From positions 1-64,000 of the forward strand of contig CALGMA010000044.1 in the NCBI GenBank assembly GCA_937959265.1: a stretch of DNA of 64,000 bases, in the 5' to 3' direction. This DNA is from an uncultured Anaerolineae bacterium (lineage in GTDB: Bacteria > Chloroflexota > Anaerolineae > J036 > Brachytrichaceae). The notes under the pieces were generated by a model, which was not told the origin of the DNA, did no database searches, and was given only the letters and a program-made list of their open reading frames with translations. The stretch's first letter is position 1; every line of letters starts with the position of its first letter. Shown here one piece after another: positions 51,567-56,664 of the stretch. The position numbers and the translations under genes were made by a program.

Positions 51567-52520
51567 CTGAGCACGTTCATCATCGCCAACCCGGCTTCCG
51601 GCAACGGTGCTACCGGCCTGCGCTGGAGCGGCGTCGCCGCCCGGTTGCGCGCCGAAGGGATTCGGTTCGACGCGCAGCTCACCGAAGCACCTGGGCACGC
51701 CGTTGACTTGGCGCGCGAGGCAGCGCAGCAGGGCTACACGCGAGTGATCTGTGTAGGCGGCGACGGCACGTTGAACGAGATCGTCAACGGTCTGATGCAG
51801 GTCGAGGTCGAACGGCGCCCCGCGCTAGGTCTGATCCCCAGCGGCACCGGCACCGACTTCGCGCGCGGGCTGGGCTGGCCGAAAGCATTGGACGGCGTCA
51901 TTGAGGCTATCCGACGCGGCACCGAGCGGCGCATTGATGTTGGCATGACCTCGTTCTACCGCGCTGGTCAGGCGCGGGCGCGCTACTTCATCAACGTGGC
52001 AGGCGCCGGCTTCGACGGAGATGTGTCCGACGTGGTCAACCGCGAGGGCAAGCACGGCGGCTCGTTGGCTTACTTTCTCACCGTCTTTCGCGTGCTGGCC
52101 GGCTATGAGCACAAGCACGCACGCGTGACACTGACTGCACCGGACGGCAGCGAACACGTCCTGCAAGGACACTATAACCTGATCGCCGTGGGCAACGGCC
52201 AATACTTCGGCGGCGGCATGCGCATCAGCCCCAACAGCGATACATGCGACGGCTGCTTCGAAGCCATCGTGATCGAGGCAATGAGCCGCGCCGAGTTCGT
52301 GCTGAACTTTCCGAAGGTCTATCGCGGCACACATCTCTCACACCCGAAAGTGAGCGAATATCGCGTGGTCGCCATTCGCATCGAGTTAGTCAACACCAGC
52401 CAGCGCATGTTCGTGGAGGCCGAAGGTGAATTGTTCGGCGAAGCACCGGCCAGCTTTCAAGTCATCCCAGGCGCGCTCCGGCTGATTGCACCCTCGGGCT
52501 TGCTACAATCACGACAATGA
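51567..52520 (+). CDS. Diacylglycerol/lipid kinase (DagK/YegS family), CTG start
   Basis: This 317-residue kinase phosphorylates lipids at the membrane face. The family start [10 protein letters not shown], the [13 protein letters not shown] loop and [12 protein letters not shown] are all present. The start is unusual: an in-frame TGA lies at 51558-51560, and the only plausible initiator before IIANPASG is CTG at 51567, preceded by a well-spaced GAGGTGA. The next conventional start (TTG 51645) would remove the conserved N-terminal loop. The stop overlaps guaA (ATGA). Confidence 0.87.
52504..52509 (+). promoter_or_regulatory. -10 box (leaderless type) of guaA
   Basis: TACAAT ends 7 nt before ATG 52517, inside the 3' end of the lipid kinase gene. 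Confidence 0.5.
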
Positions 52521-54181
52521 CCGACGCCATTGCCGTCCTCGATTTCGGCTCGCAGTACTCGCAACTCATCGCCCGCCGCGTTCGCGAAGCACACGTATAT
52601 TGCGAACTGTTCCCCTGGGACGCGCCACGCGAGAAAGTGATGGCGTTGCAGCCGCGCGGCTTCATCCTCTCCGGTGGGCCGAACAGCGTATACGACGCCA
52701 GCGCGCCGGCACTGCCCGGCTATGTATTGGAGAGCGGCCTGCCGGTGCTGGGCATCTGCTACGGCATGCAACTGCTGGCGCATGCGCTTGGCGGACGGGT
52801 GGCGCCATCGCTACAGCGGGAGTACGGCGAGGCGAGATTGGAGGTTGAAGACTGTGAGCTGTGGCCAGACGCGACTGCTCATCTTCAGTCGCCGATCACT
52901 GTGTGGATGAGCCACGGCGATCGCATCGAGGCGCTGCCCCCGGGTTTCAAGGTCATCGCGCGCACAGCGCATTCACCGATCGCTGGCATGGCCGACCCGT
53001 TGCGTCGGCTCTACGCGATCCAGTTCCATCCTGAGGTGAACCACACCCAGCACGGACGCGAGATCATCGCCCATTTCGTGCATGCCATCTGCCGCTGCCG
53101 TGCGTCATGGACACCGGCAAACATCATCGAAGAGAGCGTGCAGAAGATCCGTGACCAAGTGGGACGGCGACCGGTGATCTGCGGGCTGTCCGGTGGCGTG
53201 GATTCATCGGTCGCAGCGACGCTGGTGCACAAAGCGGTGGGTGATCAACTCACGTGCGTATTCGTGAACACCGGCCTGCTGCGCAAGGGCGAACCGGAAC
53301 AGGTCGTCGAGACATTCGAGCGTGAGCAGGGCATGCGGCTGATCGCCGTGGACGCCAGCGAGGAGTTCCTGGAAGTCTTGAGCGGTGTGACCGACCCGGA
53401 AGAAAAGCGCCGGCGCATCGGCGAGAAGTTCATCCGCGTGTTCGAGGCGGTGGTGAGGGAACACAGGATAGGGTCGAGGGACTGGGGGGCAAGGGTTGGG
53501 GAGCCAGCATTAGAAGGCGGAGGTCAGGGGGCAGGAGTCGGAAGTCAGAAGTCCAGAGTGGAGATCGGGACGGCATTTGCCGATGATCGCCCATTGCTGT
53601 GCCAGGGCACGCTGTATCCTGACGTGATCGAGAGTCGCGGACCGGAGCGCCAAGCGGCGGCGAAGATCAAAACGCATCATAACGTGGGCGGGTTGCCCCA
53701 GGACATGCAGTTCGAGTTGCTAGAGCCGCTGCGCTACCTGTTCAAGGACGAGGTGCGCGCCATCGGCGCAGCACTGGGGCTGCCGGACGCGATCGTATGG
53801 CGTCAGCCTTTCCCCGGACCGGGCCTGGCCGTACGCGTGCTGGGCGAGGTGACGTGGGCGCGTTTGGAGCGTCTGCGCGCGGCCGACGCGATTTTGCAAG
53901 AAGAATTGCACCGCGCCGATTTGATGCGCGCTACGTCGCAGGCGTTCGCCGTGCTGCTGCCGGTGCGCACCGTGGGCGTGATGGGCGATGGACGCACCTA
54001 CAGCGAGGTCATCGCCATCCGCGCCGTGACCACCGACGATTTCATGACGGCCGACTGGGCGCGCATCCCCTTCGATGTGCTGGCGCGCATCAGCAACCGC
54101 ATCGTAAACGAAGTGTCCGGCATCAACCGCGTCGTTTATGACATCACCACCAAGCCGCCGGCGACCATCGAGTGGGAATAA
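52517..54181 (+). CDS. guaA: GMP synthase (glutamine-hydrolysing), with an in-frame insertion
   Basis: This 554-residue enzyme converts XMP to GMP. The N-terminal glutaminase has Cys81 in GICYGMQLL and the His-Glu in QFHPEVNHT; the ATP pyrophosphatase has SGGVDSS (about residue 226), and the C-terminal dimer domain ends [13 protein letters not shown]. Between [13 protein letters not shown] and [14 protein letters not shown] lies an insertion of about 37 residues rich in Gly, Arg and Ser (about residues 316-353) encoded by purine-rich repeat-like DNA; the family normally has only a short linker here. All catalytic residues are intact and the frame is kept, so the enzyme is probably active. Confidence 0.95.
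53464..53575 (+). repeat. Purine-rich repeat-like insertion inside guaA
   Basis: This stretch includes GGTCAGGGGGCAGGAGTCGGAAGTCAGAAGTCC, i.e. tandem GTCRGRAGTC-type units. The pattern differs from the surrounding codon use and resembles dispersed intergenic repeats found in several filamentous bacteria. Its length is a multiple of three within reading error, since the frame is open. Confidence 0.5.
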
Positions 54182-55369: not shown

Positions 55370-55990
55370 CTATGGGGTCGGCGGCGTGTCCGGCAGGATG
55401 GATGTGCTGCCGACTGCTGACTTTCCCAATCCTAGCGCGTCGGCCACACGGTTGGCATAGTTGAACCAGCCGGCGATCATGACGATCTGCAAGATCCCCC
55501 GGTCATCGAAGCCGACGCCACGCAGCATCTGCACATCGCGCTCAGTCATCTTGTAGGAGTGCTTCGTCATCTTGACGACGAAGTCGAGCATGGCGCGATC
55601 CCGCGCATCCAGGGCTGCCTGGGTGTAATCCGTCCGCAACGCGGCGGCGAGTTCGTCGTCGAGCGATTCCCGACGCAAGAACTCGACATGGCTCTCCGTT
55701 CAGTAGAAGCAGCGATTCTGCGCGCTGACGACGGCAGCGATCATCTCCTGTTGCCGGCGAGAGAGCGGCAGATCGGGCTGGTAGAGCACGCCCAGCGCCG
55801 AGCCGATGTGCAACATCGCTTGGGGGATCAGGCTGTGCGCGGCGATGATGCTGTCTTCGCTGCCGTCGGGATTGATAAGCGTCGGCACGGCGTCCCGGTA
55901 GCTCGACGGATAGAGGGCGTAGATCTGCGCATAGATGGCGCGCAGCTCGGGGCCGGCGACATCGGAGGGGATGGTTTCGATCCAGGGCAT
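55370..55990 (-). CDS. AhpD-like peroxidase-related protein, probable selenoprotein (UGA=Sec97)
   Basis: Read through an in-frame TGA (55702-55700), this is one continuous 206-residue protein. N-terminal part: MPWIETIPSDVAGPELRAIYAQIY; then LSRRQQEMIAAVVSAQNRCFY, the TGA, TESHVEFL; then the C-terminal part with MLDFVVKMTKHSYKMTERDVQMLRGVGFDDRGILQ and NYANRVADALG. This fits carboxymuconolactone-decarboxylase/AhpD-type peroxidase-related enzymes whose active site is C-x-x-C-x-x-x-H. The UGA sits exactly at the second Cys, and a SECIS-like hairpin follows after 12 nt. A mixed selenenyl-sulfide site (CxxU) is inferred; a nonsense mutation is the alternative. Start 55990 is 6 nt after a CACAAT box with TTGCGC 17 bp upstream. 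Confidence 0.75.
55658..55687 (-). ncRNA. SECIS-like hairpin downstream of the UGA
   Basis: On the mRNA, GUCGAG (55687-55682) pairs with CUCGAC (55663-55658), UUC pairs with GAA inside, leaving a 9-nt loop UUGCGUCGG and a 3-nt bulge UCG. It begins 12 nt after the UGA and has GU in the loop, as in known bacterial SECIS elements. It lies within coding sequence. Confidence 0.55.
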
Positions 55991-56079: not shown

Positions 56080-56664
56080 ATGACGAATTCACCAACGGAT
56101 GCAAAAGATGGCACCGCCGGCACGACAGAAATTGCCACCCTGGGCGGCGGTTGCTTCTGGTGCCTCGAAGCGGTGTATGAACAACTTAATGGCGTGCTCA
56201 GCGTGGAGTCGGGCTATTCGGGTGGGCACGTACGCAACCCTAGCTATGGGGATGTATGCGAAGGGATCACCGGCCATGCCGAAGTAGTGCAGATCACATT
56301 CGATCCGCATGTGGTCTCGTTCCGCGAGCTGCTCGAGGTGTTCTTCGTCATTCACGATCCAACCACGCTGAATCGCCAGGGCGCGGACGTGGGCACGCAA
56401 TATCGCTCGGCCATCTTCTATCACTCGCCCGAACAGCGCGAGACTGCGAAGCAAGTGATCGCCGAAGTGAAAGCGGCCAAGATCTGGGATGACCCAATCG
56501 TGACCGAAGTGACGCCGTTCGATGCGTTCTATAAGGCCGAGGCGTATCACCAAGGCTACTTCCGCAATAATCCCAATCAGGGCTACTGCCGCGTGGTGAT
56601 CGCGCCGAAGGTGAGCAAGTTTCGCAAGCTGTTCGTGGATAAGCTGAAGAAGCAGATGGCGTGA
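56080..56664 (+). CDS. msrA: Peptide methionine-(S)-sulfoxide reductase MsrA
   Basis: This 194-residue enzyme repairs oxidised methionine. The catalytic Cys25 is in GGGCFWCLEA; YSGGHVRNPSYGDVCEGITGHAE and the HDPTTLNRQGADVGTQYRS block are diagnostic of MsrA. AGGAGAAAG lies before the ATG. It is divergent from the AhpD-like gene, so the two oxidative-stress functions share an 89-bp promoter region. No msrB domain is fused. Confidence 0.95.
   Translation: MTNSPTDAKDGTAGTTEIATLGGGCFWCLEAVYEQLNGVLSVESGYSGGHVRNPSYGDVCEGITGHAEVVQITFDPHVVSFRELLEVFFVIHDPTTLNRQGADVGTQYRSAIFYHSPEQRETAKQVIAEVKAAKIWDDPIVTEVTPFDAFYKAEAYHQGYFRNNPNQGYCRVVIAPKVSKFRKLFVDKLKKQMA

Follow-up and report, generated by a model that had tools for sequence, protein, structure and literature searches.

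A Sargasso Sea study described AhpD-like selenoproteins with a CxxU motif in 2005, with 27 sequences (PMC1088965), and a 2026 review lists the AhpD-like family as TIGR01926, with CxxU as its motif (PMC13188914). An earlier note on the DNA studied here, made from its letters alone, had described CxxU forms as established for AhpD-like proteins, in agreement with this listing. Decoding of such genes involves a bacterial SECIS hairpin, for which the model in use calls for a loop of 3-9 nt with a G as its first or second nucleotide, 4 bp or more in the stem, a distance of 16-37 nt from the UGA and an energy of -7.5 kcal/mol or lower (PMC13188914).

Here we analyze a 64,000-nucleotide stretch of DNA from an uncultured Anaerolineae bacterium (the window), which almost certainly contains a working selenoprotein gene, with its UGA read as Sec97 and an AhpD-fold redox protein as its product. 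The reading frame, the codon pattern among homologues, the Sec machinery, purifying selection and a conserved hairpin are all evident in the sequences. The gene lies on the minus strand (55370-55990), running from the ATG at 55990, a position common to relatives in the alignment, to the TAG at 55372-55370, and comprises 206 codons including Sec97. The earlier note had recognized two ORFs in one frame separated only by a TGA and proposed that, joined, they encode a full-length AhpD-like protein. They do form a single frame, in which the TGA at 55702-55700 (codon 97) is the sole internal stop, with no other nonsense changes. The joined product matches PF02627 (CMD/AhpD domain) and exceeds the curated cut-off of NCBIfam TIGR01926, 'peroxidase-related enzyme' (113.5 vs 81.8 bits), and also that of the AhpD core domain TIGR00778; the canonical AhpD model TIGR00777 gives no match. 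No paralogue is found elsewhere in the source genome at E < 0.2. In the joined protein, codon 97 takes the place of the second Cys in the CxxC motif of AhpD (N-R-C94-F-Y-U97-T-E-S-H101), as the proposed reading NRCFY-UGA-TESH had it.

Among 70 homologues, the codon aligned with Sec97 is TGA in 57 and TGC or TGT in 13, with no other codon, and the Cys-containing homologues line up at the UGA. No other stop is present inside the domain in those TGA forms for which stop positions are listed, the set to which this statement applies. TGA relatives within the genus include two draft genomes (87 and 84-87%) and a single-contig genome (91%), and further ones occur in three g225 genomes of the same family (62-65%) and in five planctomycete MAGs (60-65%). 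Within the genus, dN is 0.02-0.03 upstream and 0.04-0.06 downstream of the TGA, with dS of 0.42-0.60 in both parts, and in this comparison purifying selection acts on both sides. A pseudogene or a sequencing error, in which a Cys codon had mutated or been misread to TGA, might be considered given that TGC and TGT are one base change away and that the source genome is a draft (4.0 Mb in 52 contigs, 94% complete) with an estimated contamination of 5.1%. Against this, separate assemblies from the genus retain TGA rather than TGC or TGT, and since one of these is a single-contig genome, the TGA in the window is not an assembly error. TGA is moreover found in most homologues read, across two phyla, and purifying selection persists past it. 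We regard this explanation as already refuted by the comparisons, with a negligible probability.

Some homologues depart from the simple arrangement. Two TGA homologues lie in longer frames, L091 (G730) of 376 codons and L079 (G411) of 293 codons, the former with a second partial match downstream; both are possible domain fusions or repeats. Another match (L099, G807:C337:2443-2856), on a short contig and near the contig end, contains two TGA, one TAG and one TAA, and is possibly a decayed copy.

The earlier note had suggested a search for selA, selB, selC and selD, and all four are present in the source genome, which encodes SelA, full-length SelB, SelD and a tRNA-Sec with anticodon UCA (tca). 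The selD gene (G000:C6:171103-172038, minus strand) is itself a selenoprotein gene, with TGA in frame where this enzyme usually has Sec (SCAGUAGKL), which means that Sec decoding is needed by at least one further gene. All seven of the CFYU relatives whose genomes are named carry selA, which was not found in any of the three alphaproteobacterial CxYC relatives. In a survey of 400 Chloroflexota genomes, 64 have matches to the AhpD-like family, 42 of them counted as TGA forms, a count that reflects the number of stops rather than a codon reading where the locus was not read individually. Of these 42 genomes, 41 carry selA, compared with 281 of the 358 others (Fisher p 0.0015, ancestry not corrected for). 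The sole TGA-form exception in which selA was not found, G188, has tRNA-Sec and is a draft with 84% completeness. In G815, the TGA gene and tRNA-Sec are present and selA was not found. A more distant TGA relative, SAR202 G408 (1.9 Mb), yielded no convincing selA and no tRNA-Sec match, probably due to incompleteness of the genome.

The clade of the window protein (n = 14) contains 13 Sec forms and a single Cys form, in G626, whose genome yielded no selA and no tRNA-Sec, and this fits a change from Sec to Cys upon loss of the Sec pathway. True termination at the UGA, or low-level readthrough as Trp or another amino acid without Sec, would leave the codon pattern unaccounted for, in that the alternative state is always Cys and never Trp or any other residue. 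Near-cognate tRNAs can cause some readthrough of UGA, which lends this alternative a general plausibility. The occurrence of the TGA form nevertheless tracks selA, and in this genome UGA is a normal stop in other genes while the Sec pathway is complete, making termination or non-Sec readthrough very unlikely.

Cys forms vary in their motifs. The G626 protein (L064), the nearest Cys form to the window protein, reads N-C-T-K-Y-C, with the first Cys displaced by one place to give CxxxC. In the Chloroflexota genus g54 (L035-L037, L039, L040, L045), C-A/G-L-C replaces CxYC; these genomes have selA despite the Cys form, and thus represent a Cys clade within Sec-using bacteria.

The predicted SECIS (55648-55685, minus strand) is proposed on the basis of model fit, compensatory pairs and synonymous conservation. 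It consists of an outer stem GAGUUC/GAACUC with a flanking C-G pair and an inner stem CGUCG(G)/CGACG, which pair columns 18-24 with 49-55 and 28-33 with 41-46 (numbered from the U of UGA), and places its loop about 29-30 nt after the UGA. The window sequence fits the bacterial model, with a 6 bp stem, the loop GAAUCGC, a distance of 30 nt from the UGA and an energy of -16.4 kcal/mol. The same is true of 55 of the 57 TGA forms and of 4 of the 13 Cys forms. When the model is applied strictly, two of the five CFYU members from planctomycetes do not fit. Ten displaced positions within these genes, used as controls, satisfy the model in about half of the sequences (22 to 43 of 53-57), and fit to the model is therefore weak evidence when taken by itself. 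Across 12 relatives, 90.4% of pair cells are kept and three pairs show two-sided compensatory change, while the inner stem is broken in ~18% of cells. Covariation was not significant with the first eight relatives alone and became so only with 12. It supports the predicted SECIS to a moderate degree, because few events underlie it and shuffles equal the score in 9 of 500 trials. Across these 12 relatives, synonymous codon identity peaks at 0.71 in codons 11-20 after the UGA, compared with 0.37-0.58 elsewhere. Folding of the window RNA by itself is no better than that of shuffled sequences (z -0.38), so that the case for a SECIS rests on comparison.

A different hairpin, with GU in its loop, had been proposed in the earlier note, which gave no letters for it. 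As reconstructed here, it has the stem GUCGAG/CUCGAC with GU within the loop (UUGCGUCGG). This hairpin can form, and it overlaps the conserved SECIS-like hairpin, but it is not itself conserved: 74% of its pair cells are kept and no covariation signal is seen, and after tests on 8 and on 12 relatives it was rejected as the conserved element.

An AlphaFold2 model of the product, with the TGA read as Cys, has a pLDDT of 84.5 and is nearly all helical, suggesting an AhpD fold. Its best structural matches are 6k40, 2pfx and 3c1l. The catalytic set of Mycobacterium AhpD comprises Glu118, Cys130, His132, Cys133 and His137. The AhpD spacing Glu-x11-Cys-x2-Cys/Sec-x3-His is retained in the selenoprotein, with Glu82, Cys94, Sec97 and His101 invariant (alignment A3); in the 12-sequence alignment this holds for the AhpD-type glutamate Glu82 (55745-55747), for Cys94, the first residue of the CxxU motif (55709-55711), and for the AhpD-type histidine His101 (55688-55690), all on the minus strand. 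Tyr96 stands where AhpD has His132, beside the second Cys. Because the catalytic spacing is kept, we infer that Sec97 occupies the peroxide-attacking position, with Cys94 as the predicted resolving Cys.

In the proposed pathway, selenophosphate would be made by SelD, and SelA would convert Ser-tRNA(Sec) to Sec-tRNA(Sec), which SelB would bring to the UGA, guided by a hairpin ~15-50 nt downstream, with the ribosome putting in Sec97 rather than terminating. The product, a member of the TIGR01926 'peroxidase-related' family, would adopt an all-helical AhpD fold and carry Sec97 at the second CxxC position, where AhpD has its peroxide-attacking Cys. The selenolate would probably reduce a hydroperoxide or a disulfide, forming a selenenylsulfide with the resolving Cys94 that would then be recycled by a cellular thiol donor, while Glu82 and His101 would form a proton relay. 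Peroxidase or reductase activity is predicted from sequence. That the selenoprotein is not mainly a peroxidase, acting instead as a thiol/selenol-disulfide reductase or in other CMD-fold chemistry, is a less favored but serious alternative: different chemistries occur on the CMD/AhpD fold, matches from the fold search include the debrominase Bmp8 and CMD-family proteins, and the TIGR01926 name says only 'peroxidase-related'. A mainly peroxidatic role is favored by retention of the AhpD Glu, Cys, Cys/Sec and His, and by the titles of the closest solved structures, which name alkyl hydroperoxide reductase, peroxidase-related or antioxidant-defence proteins.

The sequences from the family f1 (four from g1, the genus of the window, and three from the genus g225) form one clade (95/93), next to planctomycete sequences. 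A recent transfer from Planctomycetota to Roseilinea, suspected from the wide tree, was rejected when the addition of g225 gave this family clade, and any cross-phylum exchange therefore predates the g1/g225 split. The wide tree requires at least 3-4 changes between Sec and Cys. Distribution within the genus is patchy, with the gene in 4 of the 9 genomes searched, and the members without it still carry selA. Family matches occur in 128 of 392 Planctomycetota genomes, most of those listed having one TGA.

The divergent msrA neighbor described in the earlier note is real (56080-56664, plus strand), with a Cys active site, GGGCFWC. The pairing is kept in three other g1 genomes and was not found at the g225 or planctomycete loci, and it therefore gives no strong functional hint. 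Elsewhere in the window, a GuaA-like ORF (52517-54181, plus strand) has a 26-residue Gly-rich stretch, perhaps a small inserted repeat; the L024 relative has a shorter, different stretch. A broader proposal, which we consider doubtful, would treat the CFYU clade as a subfamily of selenoproteins in its own right. This clade would have a SECIS of its own, two-tiered and long-spaced (loop ~30 nt downstream of the UGA), would have passed between Planctomycetota and a single Chloroflexota family, and in g1 would be coupled to MsrA in oxidative-damage repair.

The AhpD-like family is common in both Chloroflexota and Planctomycetota, and two reviews of the prokaryotic selenoproteome, one of them PMC13188914, do not mention these phyla under these names, so the breadth of AhpD-like selenoproteins in them may be under-reported. 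This is a matter of annotation, not of principle. Standard annotation would cut the gene into two fragments and miss the protein. Switches between Sec and Cys that go with having or lacking the Sec pathway (e.g. in G626) offer a natural series for the study of Sec gain and loss.

The gene is an addition to the already known AhpD-like CxxU selenoprotein family, given that it passes the cut-off of TIGR01926, the family already listed as such. It shares with this family a single Sec, the CxxU motif, Cys homologues and a SECIS-like hairpin. Unlike many TIGR01926 members, in which the loop lies 16-25 nt from the UGA and contains GU or GGU, the loop in the window is at ~30 nt, and within TIGR01926 the protein falls in a CFYU subclade common to one Chloroflexota family and Planctomycetota. 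It resembles NF041238 (AhpD_rel_CFYUT) in its literal CFYUT motif and AhpD core, but its score of 66.9 bits falls short of the 175-bit cut-off and its match covers only positions 177-333 of the 357-position model, so that membership is ruled out by score and length despite the identical string. With the Cys-type peroxidase-related or AhpD proteins of solved structure (2pfx, 6k40, 2oyo, 3c1l and 2prr) it shares the predicted fold (TM about 0.73 by query and 0.8 by target), and its sequence is similar to theirs across the CxxC region, differing in the 2pfx and 2oyo alignments by its Sec at the position where those proteins have Cys.
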